Shown in pieces: positions 10,157 through 25,185 of a stretch of DNA of 64,000 nucleotides; the stretch's first letter is position 1, and each line of letters starts with the position of its first letter. Made by a program: the position numbers and the translations under genes. The notes beneath the pieces are model-generated. The model was given only the letters and a program-made list of their open reading frames with translations. It made no database searches and was not told the DNA's origin. The stretch covers positions 1 to 64,000 of the forward strand of contig QWPB01000180.1 in assembly GCA_003671275.1 (NCBI GenBank), in the 5' to 3' direction. The stretch comes from Planctomycetota bacterium. Its GTDB lineage: Bacteria; Planctomycetota; Planctomycetia; Planctomycetales; Planctomycetaceae.

Positions 10157-11362
10157 ATGAAGTCTGCCTTGCCCCTGCGTTTTTCCATGCGAACGATCAT
10201 TCTGGCCAGCAGTCTGGGGACTGTGCTGGGCGGTCTGATTGCGCCGGCAACGGGTCAGGACGACAGCCAATCAGCCCCCTTCGAGACGGCGATTCCTGCC
10301 GATTCCGAGGCGGAAACATCGGGGTTTCTCTTCTTTCCTCGCAGTGGTGCCGAAGAGATGTCGGCGACAACCGAGCCGCCGCCGATCACTCCCGCCGATG
10401 AATCCCCCGTCTCCGAATCCGGCCCCCGCGAGAGGCCGTCCTTTGCGGATGCGAGACTCGATCTGACGGAAGAGTATCAGGGCGATCACAATCGTTTTGA
10501 CGATGCCGGTGGCCGTCCCATTCCCTTCGAACCTGCGGAAGCCGACAACGGTTGGCGGGATTCCAGTATTCAGAGACCGGAAACGATCAGCCTGAATGAC
10601 CAGCCGTGGGTGGAATGGCACAAGATCACTATTCAGGGGCAAACGTTACCGACCGCCGAGGAGGGACTGGGCGTCACCAGCGTCGACATCAAGGGTACGC
10701 TGAAGTTTGCAAAGCTCCCCTTCCTGTTTGTGACCCCTCGGGTGGCTTGGCATTTTCTGGATGGCCCCCCCACGACCGATTTACCGCCACGACTGTTTGA
10801 TTTTTCGCTGGATACCACCGCGTTTGTACCGCTCGATGACCGCTGGATGATCCAGGCAGGGGTGGCTCCCGGCATGTACACCGACCTGCATGCGATGCAG
10901 GATGCGTTCCGGATCACCGGGCGGGGACTGGTGTTTTATCGCTGGTCACCTCAATTGCAGGTGGCGGGCGGGTTCATCTACCTCGGACGGAAAGATATCA
11001 CGGCACTGCCCGCTATCGGGGCCGTCTACACTCCCAGCGACGATCTCAAAGCCGAGTTGCTGTTTCCCAAGCCCAAGGTGGCTTACCGGTATCACCATGA
11101 TCTGGATCGCGAGCGGTGGGTCTACCTGACTGGTGAACTTGGCGGGGGCACATGGGCCATTCAGCGCAGCAGCGGGAGCGATGACATCGCAACCTACCGT
11201 GACCTGCAGCTGCTACTGGGGATTGAACACAAGGAAACCGGCGGACTGAACTGGCAGATGGAAGGCGGTTATGTCTTCTCCCGTGAAATTGAATACGAAT
11301 CACAAATCGGAAACACCGAGCTTCCAGCCACAGCAGTGTTGCGTCTGGTGTTGTCGTTCTAG
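10157..11362 (+). CDS. DUF6268-like predicted outer-membrane beta-barrel protein
   Basis: 401 residues with a likely signal peptide (TIILASSLGTVLGGLIAP, cleavage probably after PATG). A Pro/Ser/Glu-rich linker follows to about residue 130. The rest is dominated by alternating hydrophobic and aromatic strands (WMIQAGVAPGMYTD, LVFYRWSPQLQVAGGFIYLG, WQMEGGYVFSREIEYES) and ends in LRLVLSF, the terminal aromatic typical of outer-membrane barrels. This resembles planctomycete DUF6268 proteins as I remember them. The function is unknown; a porin or adhesion role is only a guess. The start at 10157 (MKSALPLRF) is preferred. 10187 (MRTIILASS) also gives a good signal peptide, and the open frame reaches 10106. 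Confidence 0.6.
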   Translation: MKSALPLRFSMRTIILASSLGTVLGGLIAPATGQDDSQSAPFETAIPADSEAETSGFLFFPRSGAEEMSATTEPPPITPADESPVSESGPRERPSFADARLDLTEEYQGDHNRFDDAGGRPIPFEPAEADNGWRDSSIQRPETISLNDQPWVEWHKITIQGQTLPTAEEGLGVTSVDIKGTLKFAKLPFLFVTPRVAWHFLDGPPTTDLPPRLFDFSLDTTAFVPLDDRWMIQAGVAPGMYTDLHAMQDAFRITGRGLVFYRWSPQLQVAGGFIYLGRKDITALPAIGAVYTPSDDLKAELLFPKPKVAYRYHHDLDRERWVYLTGELGGGTWAIQRSSGSDDIATYRDLQLLLGIEHKETGGLNWQMEGGYVFSREIEYESQIGNTELPATAVLRLVLSF

Positions 11363-18561: not shown

Positions 18562-18634
<73 letters not shown>

Positions 18635-18657
18635 CTCTGACGTAAAACCTTACTGAA

Positions 18658-18732
18658 TCGCATGTTGCGATACCTGACGATGTTCGTCAGTGCGGTGGAA
18701 AACCTGATTCGAGCGTGGTAGTCGACTACCAC
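18658..18732. promoter_or_regulatory. Three consecutive palindromes before the integrase
   Basis: TCGCA-TGT-TGCGA (18658-18670), CTGACGA-TGT-TCGTCAG (18674-18690) and the gapless 18-bp palindrome GTGGTAGTCGACTACCAC (18715-18732) lie between tRNA-Val and the integrase start at 18743. The first two share the loop TGT. Their placement suits recombinase arm or core sites or an operator for the integrase promoter; which one is inference. Confidence 0.6.
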
Positions 18733-18742
18733 AATTGAAGAA

Positions 18743-19849
18743 ATGGACCGCACGATGACTCGGAAGCGTAGCTCCCTGCCTACTTACCTGCTCCACAAAC
18801 CCACCGGTCAGGCTAGATGCCGGATCGATGGGAAGGACATCTACCTGGGCCTGTACGGGTCGGAAAGTTCACGAATCAGGTACGGGCAACTGGTCGCTAA
18901 GCTGGCGGGCGGTATGTCAGTCGACCCGCTCGCTGACTCCAATCGAAAAGGGCCACCGCGAAGTGATTCTGAGGCTGATCCGGGGCCGACTGTCGGGGAA
19001 CTCTGTCTGGCCTTCCTGCGATACGCCCAAGGCCACTACGTCAAGAACGGCCAACCAACCAGCCAGTTGCATGTCGTCAAAGGCACTGTCCGCCCCCTGA
19101 ATGAACTGTACGGACTGACCCCGGCGAAAGACTTCGGACCGCTGGCCATGAAGGCCGTGAGGACGAAGATGATCGAACTCGGCTGGACGCGTGGCACAAT
19201 CAATGCCTCGATGGGCAGGATTCGACGAATCTTCAAACACGCTGTCGAGAACGAACTGATCGACTCCAACATTCTTCAAAGGCTGCAATGCGTGGCTCCG
19301 CTTCTCGCCGGTCGGACCGAGGCACACGACAACGCCCCCCGCACTGCGGTTGAACCCGCTGACATCGAGGCGGTACGGCTGTTGGTGAGTCCCTTGGTCC
19401 GAGACCTGATTGACGTGCAACGCCTCACTGGGGCACGCTCTGGCGAATTGTTATCGCTTACCACTGGGGCAATAGATCGGACGGGGGAAGTCTGGACAGC
19501 GGAACTGAGCGATCACAAGACCGCCCATCATGGGCAATCCCGGACACTGCACTTCGGACCGCAATCACAGTTGATCCTGACGAGGCATTTGTCCGCTGAT
19601 CCACGTCAACCCGTGTTCCCGATCACTCGCCACGCCTACTGCCGAGCGATCACCAGAGCCTGCGAGAAGGCGGGTATCGAACGTTGGGTTCCTCACCAGT
19701 TGCGACATACGGCGGCGGGAGTCGTCCGCGACCAGTTCGGACTGGAGCATTGTCAGTCGGTTCTCGGTCACAGCAAAGCCGACATGACCGAGCATTACGC
19801 CAAAGCGGGTACGGCCAAAGCTCAAGAAGTCGCACTGAAGATCGGCTGA
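18743..19849 (+). CDS. Tyrosine recombinase (site-specific integrase)
   Basis: Catalyses site-specific strand exchange for integration and excision. 368 residues: an N-terminal arm-type region (residues 10-65, containing KDIYLGLYGS), a SAM-like core-binding domain (about 80-185), and the catalytic domain. The active-site residues are visible: Arg232 in TGARSGELL, a Lys in SDHKTAHH, His318 and Arg321 in VPHQLRHTAAG, His343 in VLGHSKADM, and Tyr352 in TEHYAKAG. All are intact, so it is probably functional. It sits 108 bases after tRNA-Val, its likely target. The ATG at 18743 is used; 18755 is a possible second start. Confidence 0.94.
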   Translation: MDRTMTRKRSSLPTYLLHKPTGQARCRIDGKDIYLGLYGSESSRIRYGQLVAKLAGGMSVDPLADSNRKGPPRSDSEADPGPTVGELCLAFLRYAQGHYVKNGQPTSQLHVVKGTVRPLNELYGLTPAKDFGPLAMKAVRTKMIELGWTRGTINASMGRIRRIFKHAVENELIDSNILQRLQCVAPLLAGRTEAHDNAPRTAVEPADIEAVRLLVSPLVRDLIDVQRLTGARSGELLSLTTGAIDRTGEVWTAELSDHKTAHHGQSRTLHFGPQSQLILTRHLSADPRQPVFPITRHAYCRAITRACEKAGIERWVPHQLRHTAAGVVRDQFGLEHCQSVLGHSKADMTEHYAKAGTAKAQEVALKIG

Positions 19850-19968: not shown

Positions 19969-21651
19969 ATGGCGAAACGGCATTCTCATTCTGCATTAAA
20001 GCTCCGGAATGAACTGAGGGACAAGGTTCACCTCCTCAGTGTGAACACGCCACCCGACTATTTCCAAATGATCCTCCCGCACAATCACAACGGGACACCG
20101 AATGGTCCGATCAGAGTGAATGCGTATGAGGTCTGCCTTGGCCAGAATCGGCCCATTCGATGGCAAGCCGATGAGGTCCGCGACCTCTGGCGACAGTCGG
20201 CGGAGTTCATTCCCGGTGCGACAGTTGTTGAGGCGGAGTCTGATGCCGGGTTCACGCTGTGGCTGTGGTCAGTGACGCAAAGGGTTTGGACAGCACGCCG
20301 CGAGATGGGGTACGCGATCAACCCTTACACGATGTGGTTCTCCGGCATTGTCACGGGATGCGCTGGGGAGCAGGTTGTCAATTCGGACCCACTGAAGGCG
20401 ACGGCTATTGAGGTATCGCTGATTGCATCGCACGCAGCCAAGATTGCAGATACCGGCGAGAAGTTCTGGGCGGATGTTCACGATTGTCATCAGAGAGCGG
20501 AAGAGAATCTTCGCATTCGCGATGAGGTCAATTCGCAGCCAGACTCTCCGAACCTGTGGCTGGCAGACGGCAAGGCGAAATGCACTCTGAGGGAGTACCG
20601 CACGGCGATGCTGAATCTCATCAGGCTTGAGAATATGAGCAATGCCGTCGCCTGTTACGAACGAATGCTGATTCCAGACACCTTCAAAAAGTACCGGGGC
20701 AAGAGACACTTCACTGCCGAATTGATGGATCATCTCCGTGAAGTTGCGGTCGACCTGGAGAACCACGCGAACATAATGGCGACTGTGAACACGATACAGG
20801 CAGAACCTGCAACGGCAGGTGAAGCCTCGACAGAGAGTAACCACGAGGCTCTCGTGGCTAGCATCGAAGCGGTTTCCGAGCGGTGCATGGGACGGCTGAA
20901 CGCTGACCTGCTGCTATTGAATTCAGACCGCTCGATGTGCGACAAGTTGAAAAAGGCGAATGGCTATTGGGGTACATATCCCATGTGGAGAGAACAGGTT
21001 CACGACTCACCAAGAAATGAAGCGATCGCTAATCGAATTGTCTCGACAACGTACCGTGATCGCATCATGTCAACAACGTACCTCGTTCTGTGCAAGCTGA
21101 ATGAGGTCCACAAGGCTGCGGTTGATGTGTTGATGACGCGAGCCAAAGAGCTAGGGCGTGATCCTGCGGCTATCTGGAAGTCGGCGAACTACTGCCGTGA
21201 ATTACTGGAGGATTACCAGAAGACGCACGATGCGTATCCAAGAAGCCGGGAGAGAGATTTCTGGCCGGATTGTCTTGGGGCAACACTGTTCACGCTTCCC
21301 GCAGACATTCGACAAGCGATTCAAGATGGGCACGCGGAAGTTCTCACTCTCTGTATCAATGCCGATGACCAGACGCCGCCATCGCCTAGACGCGGACTGG
21401 CTCTCTTGGATGCCGCACTGCTCGCGAACGAAGACGATCGAGATGCGGCCAGAGAGACTAAAAGACGATGGAACAACAACCGAGACCCGAAGCTGCCGAC
21501 GCCGATGGGAGTGGCACAGAGCCATCGCCAGCGGGCGATTTACAATTGCGATGAACTGCTCGAATTCATCGCGATTGTCGACCCGGACTCGGTGCAAAGA
21601 GTTCGTAACGGGTATTTGGAACTCCTCCAGTCGGTTGCGAAAACCGTCTGA
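19969..21651 (+). CDS. Uncharacterised 560-residue island protein
   Basis: Not recognised. No signal peptide or membrane segment; largely helical and charged, rich in His, Asn and Trp in the first third. Residues near 355-375 contain a short internal echo (IVSTTYRDRIMSTTYLVL). The C-terminal ~80 residues (RRWNNNRDPKLPTPMG, then HRQRAIYNCDELLEFIAIV) resemble the small winged-helix/MerR-like units of excisionase-type proteins, in which a polar helix is followed by a Pro-rich turn and a tyrosine-containing strand. This suggests DNA binding, but it is weak inference. It lies between the integrase and the DUF1580 gene on the same strand and could be cargo or part of the element's control. ATG at 19969; the upstream ribosome site is unclear. 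Confidence 0.6.
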   Translation: MAKRHSHSALKLRNELRDKVHLLSVNTPPDYFQMILPHNHNGTPNGPIRVNAYEVCLGQNRPIRWQADEVRDLWRQSAEFIPGATVVEAESDAGFTLWLWSVTQRVWTARREMGYAINPYTMWFSGIVTGCAGEQVVNSDPLKATAIEVSLIASHAAKIADTGEKFWADVHDCHQRAEENLRIRDEVNSQPDSPNLWLADGKAKCTLREYRTAMLNLIRLENMSNAVACYERMLIPDTFKKYRGKRHFTAELMDHLREVAVDLENHANIMATVNTIQAEPATAGEASTESNHEALVASIEAVSERCMGRLNADLLLLNSDRSMCDKLKKANGYWGTYPMWREQVHDSPRNEAIANRIVSTTYRDRIMSTTYLVLCKLNEVHKAAVDVLMTRAKELGRDPAAIWKSANYCRELLEDYQKTHDAYPRSRERDFWPDCLGATLFTLPADIRQAIQDGHAEVLTLCINADDQTPPSPRRGLALLDAALLANEDDRDAARETKRRWNNNRDPKLPTPMGVAQSHRQRAIYNCDELLEFIAIVDPDSVQRVRNGYLELLQSVAKTV

Positions 21652-21831: not shown

Positions 21832-22128
21832 ATGTCGATCGATGCTCAATCTGAAACGCTGCTTACCCTTTGCGAAGCCCGCACGGCATTCCCCGGCGGT
21901 AAGCGTCTCGCACTCGCTACGCTCCATCGCTGGCGGTTGCGAGGTGTTCGCGGGGTTCATCTCGAAACGATCCTGATTGGCGGGTTGAGGTACACGTCCC
22001 GCGAAGCCATCGCCCGATTCGTGACCGCCCAGAACGTCGACGAAACGGCGACGCCCACGCTCACTCCTGCGCAGCGAACCCGCCAAGCCATCGCGGCACA
22101 GACTGAACTCGCACGGGCCGGGATATGA
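21832..22128 (+). CDS. DUF1580 family protein, excisionase-like
   Basis: 98 residues. The pattern LTLCEARTAFPGG, TLHRWRLRGVRGVHLETI, GGLRYTSREAIARFV matches DUF1580, a planctomycete family with a MerR/excisionase-like helix-turn-helix layout: a recognition helix, TLHRWRLRG, then a wing and TSREAIARF. Such proteins are found beside integrases in planctomycete islands and probably act as recombination directionality or control factors (inferred). It overlaps the next gene by 4 bases (ATGA), so the two are translationally coupled. Confidence 0.75.
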   Translation: MSIDAQSETLLTLCEARTAFPGGKRLALATLHRWRLRGVRGVHLETILIGGLRYTSREAIARFVTAQNVDETATPTLTPAQRTRQAIAAQTELARAGI

Positions 22129-22436
22129 CCCCGGAGCAGCGTGAGGCCGCTGAACTGCTTCGCGACCTGCAAACCGATCCGAAGCGAGCGGCCATCGTAA
22201 TAGCGGCCAACACGGGACTCCCTCTGGAGTTCGTCCAAGTGTGGCTGAAAACCGGACGCTGGCCGGTCCCGCGACTTGTCCAGCGAAGTCTATTCGACGC
22301 CGGGGACTCCCCCCAAGAAGCGACAAAGCCCACGACCACGGCGAGCGGTCAAGGGCTTCATCGGCTTTTCAATCCGACCGGCAAGTCGGACACCACACGC
22401 AACCCACTCAAAGGATCGCACAAGCATGATACCTGA
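22125..22436 (+). CDS. Small uncharacterised island protein
   Basis: 103 residues, no family recognised. The N-terminal half looks helical (EQREAAELLRDLQTDPKR, then GLPLEFVQVWLKTGRW), and the second half is Ser/Thr/Pro-rich and probably disordered. It overlaps the DUF1580 gene by 4 bases and the following primase gene by 11, giving a tightly packed three-gene unit. A role in replication or recombination of the element is possible from position only. Confidence 0.6.
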   Translation: MTPEQREAAELLRDLQTDPKRAAIVIAANTGLPLEFVQVWLKTGRWPVPRLVQRSLFDAGDSPQEATKPTTTASGQGLHRLFNPTGKSDTTRNPLKGSHKHDT

Positions 22437-25185
22437 TAGCCACGACGAGACAAGATGTACGCCCCTGGAGTTGGTATTGAGCCGACTCCCAGAAGCCACA
22501 GAGGCGGGGGGCGGCTGGTCGGCATGTTGTCCCGCCCATGAGGACGGACGGGCTTCCCTGTCGGTCACAGAGGGAGCCGATGGACGAGTCTTGTTGCACT
22601 GTTTCGCGGGATGCCGACCCGCTGACATCTGCGACGCGTTGGGCCTGCGGGTGACCGACCTGTTTCCGAGAGCGTCCACACTGGCAGCGGCAACACAACC
22701 CAGCGAATCCCAAGGAAAACAGGGGTTGCGTTGTCAGTCGCCGGAGAAGCCCAAGGGCAAAGCGTTCGCGACATCAGGCGAAGCCGTGGCGGCACTGGTC
22801 CGCAGTCACGGGCCGGTGAGTATGTCATGGGCCTACCACGATGCCCGTGGGGAGTCAGTGGGCATCATTTGCCGATGGGATTTGCCCAGCGGAAAAAAAG
22901 ACATCCGTCCGGTAAGCCGTCACGTCGATGGCTGGCGGTTGGTGGGGATGCCTGACTCGCGACCGTTGTACCAGTTGCCGGAACTGGCCAACGCGGATCT
23001 CGTGTTCGTCACTGAGGGAGAGAAAGCAGCGGACGCAGTGCGATCGATCGGGCTGACGGCCACGACATCTGCCCACGGATCGCAATCGGCGGCGAAATCT
23101 GATTGGCGTCCACTGGCGGGCAAGAGTGTCGCCATCGCCCCCGACCATGATCCGCCGGGCGAGCAGTACGCGGAGGCCGTGGCGGGCATCCTTGCGAGTC
23201 TTGACCCGCCTGCCACGGTCAAAGTGGTCAACCTGCCGGGCCTCCCCGAGGGGGGCGATTTCGTGGAGTGGCTCGCTGCTCAACCCGACCCCAACGACCA
23301 CGACGCGGTTTGCGATGCACTACTGAAACTGGTCGAAGCTGCGGAGCCGATCAAGGCCGACGTGCCAGCCGCTGCTGCTCCTGCGGTGGACCGGTGGCAA
23401 CCGTTCCCCGTTGATGCCCTGCCGGAGCCGCTGAGGTCCTTCGTAGCCAACGCGTCGAAGGCCATTGGCTGTGAGCCATCGTTCGTCGCGTTGCCAATTC
23501 TGTCCGCTTGCGGAGCTGCTATCGGCAACACAGCCCGACTGGAAATCAAGGGCGGATGGCATGTCCCGCCGATCCTCTGGACCGCTGTTGTGGGCGAGAG
23601 TGGAACAGCGAAGACTCCGGCTTTCCGTGCGGTGATGAAGCCCGTCCGGGCAAGGCAGCATGTCGCAAAGCAGCGACACGATGAGGTGGAAGTTGAGCAT
23701 CAAGCGGCGATGGCGTTTTACAAGAGGGACATGAAGAAATGGGAGTCCAAGGATCAAATATCCGACGCTCCGCCACGGATGCCGGATGAGCCGCATGCCG
23801 AGCGAGTCTTCACCGAAGACGCCACGGTTGAGGCAGTGGGTTCACTGCTGGCGGGGAACCCCCGTGGCATGCTCTTGGCTCGCGATGAACTGTCGGGGTG
23901 GTTTGGATCGTTCGATCAACACAGCGGTGGAAAGGGCGGGGCCGACTCTGCGAAGTGGTTGTCGATGTACAACGGGGAGACGGTGACGATCGACCGTAAG
24001 ACGGGGACGCCAAGAACGATCTGTATCCCGAATGCGGCCATGTCGATCATTGAGATCGCCGCATCGGAGGGAGACTACCTGTCGGCCCAGAAACCATTTT
24101 TGTTAATCCAGTTGAGCGATCTCTCCCCGGATCTACTGCTGCGCGATCTGAACGGCCAGCAGTTCCTGGTCATGCGAAGCAACGGTACTGGTTACGATTC
24201 CAGCCTCGTCGACCCGTTTCCGCCCGGCAGCTGGGAACGGTTTCTGCCCGGTGATTTTAATGGAGACGGACGAACGGACATGGCGGGACGGTTGTCGTCC
24301 GATGGCAGTTGGTGGATTTCCCTGGTCAACGGAAGCGGCGTTTATCAGTCAGCCACGCGATGGGGAGCGTGGAGCACATCGGCAACCTGGTCCGATCCGC
24401 TTGTGGCGGACTTTGATGGTGATGGCCGCGATGACCTCGCGGGCCGTGTTTCCAATGGCGACTGGTGGGTCTCTCGATCGACGGGAACTGCCTTGCAGGC
24501 TCGGCTCTGGGGCAACTGGAATTCCACGGCCAGCTGGGTGAACGCACAGGCCGCTGACTTCAATCGCGATGGCCGGCTGGATATCGCTGGTCGCAACAGC
24601 CAGGGAGAGTGGTTGGTGTCCCTGTCCAGCGGGACGACGCCTTCCAATTTCACATTCAGTACGAGCAAGTGGGGACAGTGGAGCACCAGTACGACCTGGA
24701 GTGATGTGGCGATCGGGGATTTCAACGGGGACGGTCGAGCTGACATCGTCGGTCGTAGTTCCATCGGGCAATGGTGGGTGAACCGCTCGACGGGCTCTTC
24801 GTTCTCCGCGGCGCTGTACTACGGTAACTGGTCAACAGGAACGACCTGGGCCGATGTGCGAGTGGCGGACTTCGACGGGAATGGTCTCGATGACATCATC
24901 GGTCGAGCACAAAACGGACAATGGTGGCTTGCCGAGAGCTTCGTGACGCAGTTCAGAACCCGTGCATTTGGAGCCTGGGCCGGACCACAAAGCCAGTGGC
25001 AGAACGTGATGGTGGGCGATGCCAATCGCGATGGTCGAGCCGACTTAATTGCCCGCAATGCGGATCAAAACCAGATCTGGACCAGTCTCTGGTCGTCCTC
25101 CGGACTGATCTCCAGTCTCTGGGCCACCTTGCCCGATTCTCCCCAGCGGCAGTGGCAGATTCTGTTTACCAGCTTGATTCAATAA
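22426..25185 (+). CDS. Chimera: truncated CHC2/Toprim/DUF3987 primase-helicase fused to FG-GAP repeats
   Basis: 919 codons in one frame. The first ~540 are a mobile-element replication protein: a primase zinc finger (C34, C35, H38, C59, C63; PAHEDG and LHCFAGC), a Toprim domain (TEGEKAAD at 196-203, PDHDPPG with D240/D242), and a DUF3987 ATPase with Walker A GESGTAKT at 390-397. The DUF3987 domain stops at about PNAAMSI (residue 538), where intact relatives continue for hundreds of residues. From about residue 570 the protein is a secreted-type FG-GAP/VCBS tail with six repeats (GDFNGDGRTDMAGR, ADFDGDGRDDLAGR, ADFNRDGRLDIAGR, GDFNGDGRADIVGR, ADFDGNGLDDIIGR, GDANRDGRADLIAR). No signal peptide is present, so the repeats would stay in the cytoplasm. 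This is best explained by deletion joining two broken genes. ATG at 22426 with AAGGA 10 bases upstream. Confidence 0.8.
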   Translation: MIPDSHDETRCTPLELVLSRLPEATEAGGGWSACCPAHEDGRASLSVTEGADGRVLLHCFAGCRPADICDALGLRVTDLFPRASTLAAATQPSESQGKQGLRCQSPEKPKGKAFATSGEAVAALVRSHGPVSMSWAYHDARGESVGIICRWDLPSGKKDIRPVSRHVDGWRLVGMPDSRPLYQLPELANADLVFVTEGEKAADAVRSIGLTATTSAHGSQSAAKSDWRPLAGKSVAIAPDHDPPGEQYAEAVAGILASLDPPATVKVVNLPGLPEGGDFVEWLAAQPDPNDHDAVCDALLKLVEAAEPIKADVPAAAAPAVDRWQPFPVDALPEPLRSFVANASKAIGCEPSFVALPILSACGAAIGNTARLEIKGGWHVPPILWTAVVGESGTAKTPAFRAVMKPVRARQHVAKQRHDEVEVEHQAAMAFYKRDMKKWESKDQISDAPPRMPDEPHAERVFTEDATVEAVGSLLAGNPRGMLLARDELSGWFGSFDQHSGGKGGADSAKWLSMYNGETVTIDRKTGTPRTICIPNAAMSIIEIAASEGDYLSAQKPFLLIQLSDLSPDLLLRDLNGQQFLVMRSNGTGYDSSLVDPFPPGSWERFLPGDFNGDGRTDMAGRLSSDGSWWISLVNGSGVYQSATRWGAWSTSATWSDPLVADFDGDGRDDLAGRVSNGDWWVSRSTGTALQARLWGNWNSTASWVNAQAADFNRDGRLDIAGRNSQGEWLVSLSSGTTPSNFTFSTSKWGQWSTSTTWSDVAIGDFNGDGRADIVGRSSIGQWWVNRSTGSSFSAALYYGNWSTGTTWADVRVADFDGNGLDDIIGRAQNGQWWLAESFVTQFRTRAFGAWAGPQSQWQNVMVGDANRDGRADLIARNADQNQIWTSLWSSSGLISSLWATLPDSPQRQWQILFTSLIQ

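Follow-up and report, generated by a model that had tools for sequence, protein, structure and literature searches.

A primase–FG-GAP open reading frame in a planctomycete genome is probably the deletion scar of an element integrated at tRNA-Val

The tRNA-integrated islands with a tyrosine integrase that Islander/TIGER map (PMC4383910, PMC12424338) carry the integrase gene beside the tRNA 3′ end. The window (the whole 64,000-nucleotide stretch of planctomycete DNA analyzed here) has this arrangement, and a relative of its element, L246, also shows the restored tRNA and the displaced 3′ fragment of such islands. The window differs from these islands in that it has no displaced fragment (attR) and in that its right end is cut inside a primase gene. 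The cut falls within a single open frame, 22426–25185, of 919 codons, which begins with an ATG at 22426, ends with a stop at 25183–25185, contains no internal stops, and is preceded by a plausible ribosome-binding site, AAAGGA, at 22410–22415. The initial annotation held that this frame joins a CHC2/Toprim/DUF3987 part to an FG-GAP part, and the ORF listing together with the Pfam and PHROGs matches bears this out, the matches of both parts lying far above chance (E 1e-40 and 1e-27). We propose that the chimeric ORF is very probably a deletion scar. The features of the locus are collected in Table 1.

Table 1. Features of the element remnant and of the chimeric ORF, in window coordinates.
Feature	Position	Strand	Evidence
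tRNA-Val (cac), site of integration, with attL at its 3′ end	18562–18635	+	ARAGORN; 3′ end present nowhere else in the assembly
Element's left arm, which other elements share in conserved form	18636–18742	+	Alignment with left arms behind tRNA-Ala/tRNA-Pro, and with G001
Tyrosine integrase, 368 aa, full length	18743–19849	+	Pfam Phage_integrase, E 9.3e-14; PHROG integrase, E 3e-30
560-aa protein, in the slot between integrase and DUF1580	19969–21651	+	No match in Pfam, NCBIfam, PHROGs or PADLOC
Small DUF1580 protein that usually accompanies this integrase	21832–22128	+	Pfam DUF1580, E 2.4e-13
103-aa ORF without family match	22125–22436	+	ORF listing
5′ part of CHC2/Toprim/DUF3987 primase-helicase gene, residues 1–541	22426–24048	+	Pfam, PHROGs, homolog alignments
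Interval containing the junction, best estimate 24049–24054	24034–24066	+	End of primase homology, start of FG-GAP-side homology
3′ part of host-type surface protein gene: last strand of the upstream domain, then FG-GAP repeats	24049–25185	+	Pfam FG-GAP; own-genome paralog

What defines the ends of the element? On the left, the integrase gene (from 18743) is adjacent to the 3′ end of tRNA-Val (18562–18635), and its nearest relatives, at 60–72% identity, are found immediately 3′ of tRNA-Ala and tRNA-Pro genes. Of the related integrases, several are followed first by a variable gene and then by DUF1580, the same layout as in the window, and the DUF1580 copies behind related integrases are 46–60% identical. 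Because the stretch from tRNA to integrase is conserved among related elements, the left boundary is fixed. The slot occupied by the 560-aa protein (19969–21651) holds different genes in related elements, and the protein is possibly a cargo or defence gene product. Upstream of the integrase, at 18716–18733, there is a palindrome, GTGGTAGTCGACTACCAC, which is perhaps an operator or arm site; related inverted repeats are found at the same place in related elements.

On the right, the initial annotation had noted that the attachment site is missing, and the search agrees: with up to three mismatches allowed, neither the window nor the whole assembly contains the tRNA-Val 3′ end a second time. Since attR is absent, we class the element as a right-truncated remnant and not as an intact island; it is unable to excise by attL × attR recombination any more. 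The related element L246 (integrase 69% identical) is intact: the 3′ half of its tRNA-Ala is present twice as a 45-bp direct repeat (2797–2841 and 10622–10666), and the two copies bound an element of about 7.8 kb. At L246 10622–10990, behind attR, lie an older left arm and the start of a second integrase, ~63 codons long. Similarly, congener G001 carries (L052, G001:C19, 2199–2561, minus strand) tRNA-Val, the left arm and the first ~56–61 integrase codons, after which similarity ends; the 350 bases counted from the start of the tRNA are 71% identical at the nucleotide level. The tRNA 3′ end is not repeated on the G001 contig, of which only about 2.5 kb more remain. Given the right-truncated remnants in G001 and behind the L246 attR, the right end thus seems to have been lost more than once, and the shorter remnant of G001, at tRNA-Val, hints that such loss recurs at this site. 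Both known remnants, two cases only, break near the same integrase position, which a variable linker near the integrase start may explain.

The first half of the ORF has the CHC2/Toprim half and the P-loop of a DUF3987 primase-helicase. PHROGs assigns residues 14–293 to phage DNA primase and residues 319–545 to helicase, and while the Pfam CHC2 match alone is weak (E 0.035), the PHROG primase match (E 1.7e-33) backs it. Walker A and B are intact, and so are the residues of CHC2 and Toprim. DUF3987 (PF13148) matches residues 349–541 (E 1.3e-40), and this match covers profile positions 2–200 of 364 only, so that the domain is incomplete in the chimera; in the relatives L059 and L060 it is complete (positions 2–363 of 364). 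Since Walker A and B are still present, what is missing from the ATPase domain is its second half.

Where does the primase homology stop? With residues 1–543 as the query against 294 genomes of the phylum, the match of full-length homologs ends at residue 541; alignments from a query that itself ends at residue 541 also end there, and these carry no weight for the position of the break. In a larger set searched under stricter settings, the match of 40 primase homologs ends at residues 535–536, after which the homologs continue for a median of 285 residues more. In the alignment, the chimera keeps pace with its relatives through IPNAAMSI (residues 534–541), which pairs with VPSASVSI, followed in the relatives by GGIQPE. 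Past residue 541, all five aligned relatives go on with G(G/T)(I/V)QP and about 250–300 further residues that are absent from the chimera. Full-length DUF3987 proteins therefore run on where the chimera stops, and they do so without the FG-GAP half. Primase alignments extending past residue 600 (L063, L173 and others) were considered as FG-GAP homology and rejected as extensions of primase alignments. The initial annotation had the primase stop mid-domain near residue 538 with the ATPase remainder gone; the truncation within DUF3987 stands, with the end of homology now refined to residues 536–541 and with Walker A and B retained.

The second half of the ORF contains six FG-GAP_3 stretches after DUF3987 (Pfam, E 3.2e-27). 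A paralog in the same genome (L053, contig C4) is 52% identical over 249 aa and aligns from residue 544 on (IAASEGDYLSAQKPFLLIQLSDLSPDL against LNAIESSASASAKPYLILQLADPQPDL), and the complete genome G143 (L100) has the same transition at residue 544, with cadherin-type domains upstream. Likewise, upstream of its FG-GAP repeats the paralog has cadherin and Ig-like domains, not primase. Aligned full-length FG-GAP proteins thus lack the primase and have cadherin-type domains in its place. The chimera has neither these upstream domains nor, as judged by eye, a signal peptide, since it begins with primase sequence; the lack of a signal peptide had been stated by the initial annotation. Single-sequence structure prediction of the FG-GAP half gave a mean pLDDT of 41.8, and the model was set aside. 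The paralog looks divided between contig C56 (G000:C56:27083–27163) and the end of C4, with an identical 27-residue end in both.

Primase homology ends at residues 536–541 (24033–24048) and FG-GAP-side homology begins at residues 544–548 (24055–24069); the junction therefore lies in 24034–24066. The frame is kept across it, as first described, and the interval is sharper than, and slightly to the left of, the earlier placement at about 24040–24130.

Is this a protein of genuine two-part architecture? The initial annotation had said that the same architecture in unrelated genomes would tell against a deletion scar, and this was looked for: neither the whole genomes searched, nor the GTDB and IMG/VR scans, nor the phage and plasmid records yielded an ORF that carries both halves. 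In plasmid records every match to the chimera spans one half only, and in phage records no match reaches beyond the primase half, of which at most about 54% is covered. The GTDB and IMG/VR scans with the whole chimera as query, which returned no relative, relied on few exact peptide patterns and are weak negatives. None of the collected primase ORFs has the FG-GAP half, and none of the FG-GAP ORFs has the primase half. One FG-GAP ORF near a primase (L239) was considered as a fusion and rejected, as it is a separate gene 4.6 kb off. A selected fusion, that is, an expressed and working protein in which the FG-GAP repeats give the truncated primase-ATPase a new binding role, would fit the 919 stop-free codons, the intact Walker A/B, CHC2 and Toprim residues, and the retention of the whole FG-GAP repeat set. 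However, the architecture has no homolog in the collections searched, the ATPase domain lacks its conserved second half, and FG-GAP repeats like these are a feature of large surface-type proteins, while the chimera is without a signal peptide. On these grounds we regard a selected fusion as very improbable, in agreement with the initial annotation, which had called it the less likely alternative. That both halves are free of stops does count against a scar, as it also fits a selected protein; it suggests that the event was recent or that the product is tolerated, and in the one strain at hand selection would look alike.

The deletion scar has also to be weighed against an error of the assembly, a draft of 198 contigs with a completeness of 99.2%, beyond which unbinned contigs could hold further sequence. 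An artefact that joined two unrelated contigs at about 24050, leaving an ORF that is not real in the organism, is the main remaining rival. The draft state favors it, as does the repetitive nature of planctomycete FG-GAP genes, the genome's own paralog being itself divided between contigs C4 and C56. But after a false join the rest of the primase gene and the 5′ part of the FG-GAP gene should turn up elsewhere, and neither was found in the 99.2% complete assembly, unbinned contigs being possible. There are just two other DUF3987 matches in the assembly: a fragment at a contig end (L091, G000:C33:6040–6211; positions 2–57) and a separate 647-aa protein (positions 131–358), neither of which is the missing part of the primase. 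Likewise, what lies upstream of the FG-GAP repeats in the paralog has no second close copy in the assembly. The absence of both remainders counts against a simple misjoin or translocation, subject to the draft state and possible unbinned contigs. In addition, neither the reading frame nor the coding strand of either half is disturbed at the join, and a deletion independently explains the missing attR. We therefore consider an artefact unlikely. Another rearrangement, an inversion or translocation, could have joined the halves instead, and would be compatible with our failure to recover the ancestral gene order from congeners; it too, however, would leave both remainders and attR elsewhere in the assembly, where they were not found, and we judge it very unlikely. 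The comparison with sister genomes yielded the shorter right-truncated remnant of G001 at the same tRNA-Val; the ancestral order beside tRNA-Val or the sulfatase was not recovered in the congeners because synteny is not kept, and an uninterrupted host gene at this place was found in none of the genomes searched, which is a point against the deletion reading.

We propose that an integrase-driven element would have integrated at the tRNA-Val 3′ end, somewhere upstream of a like-oriented FG-GAP surface-protein gene. A single deletion would then have taken the second half of the primase gene and everything to its right up to and including attR, and would have run on into the host gene, which lost its 5′ part; the frame would have been retained by a chance of about one in three. 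A right-end deletion accounts for both the fusion and the missing attR, and the deletion between island and host gene put forward by the initial annotation is thus supported: both halves are truncated, attR and the remainders are missing from the assembly, intact relatives exist, G001 carries a right-truncated remnant at the same tRNA, and the collections searched hold no two-part homolog. Every consequence of such a deletion that could be examined was borne out. That a single deletion was the event, and the order of the steps, we infer from the present arrangement. Any protein made from the fused gene would be a primase fragment that stays in the cytoplasm, holds half of the ATPase domain and has a propeller-like repeat region attached to it, and it is most likely non-functional, because the ATPase is without its second half and the repeats are without export. 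The event is of an ordinary kind, an ordinary scar of decay. It offers a clean case of how losing one end can strand a tRNA-integrated element and splice its genes to host genes, and it warns annotators not to take the 919-aa ORF for a new multidomain family.

Finally, each part of the locus can be set beside a known system. With the DUF3987 primase-helicases of planctomycete elements and phages, the chimera shares the CHC2/Toprim half and the P-loop half, with up to 54% identity to full-length relatives; these proteins are complete, whereas the chimera keeps only DUF3987 positions 2–200 of 364. With the planctomycete FG-GAP surface proteins that carry cadherin or Ig-like domains it shares the repeats, at 52% identity to the own-genome paralog; those proteins have upstream domains, whereas the chimera has none of these and no signal peptide. 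Like the right-truncated remnants of the same element family in G001 and behind L246, the window retains the tRNA-side left arm and has lost the right part. Those remnants break inside the integrase, whereas the break in the window lies 5.4 kb further to the right and gives an in-frame fusion.
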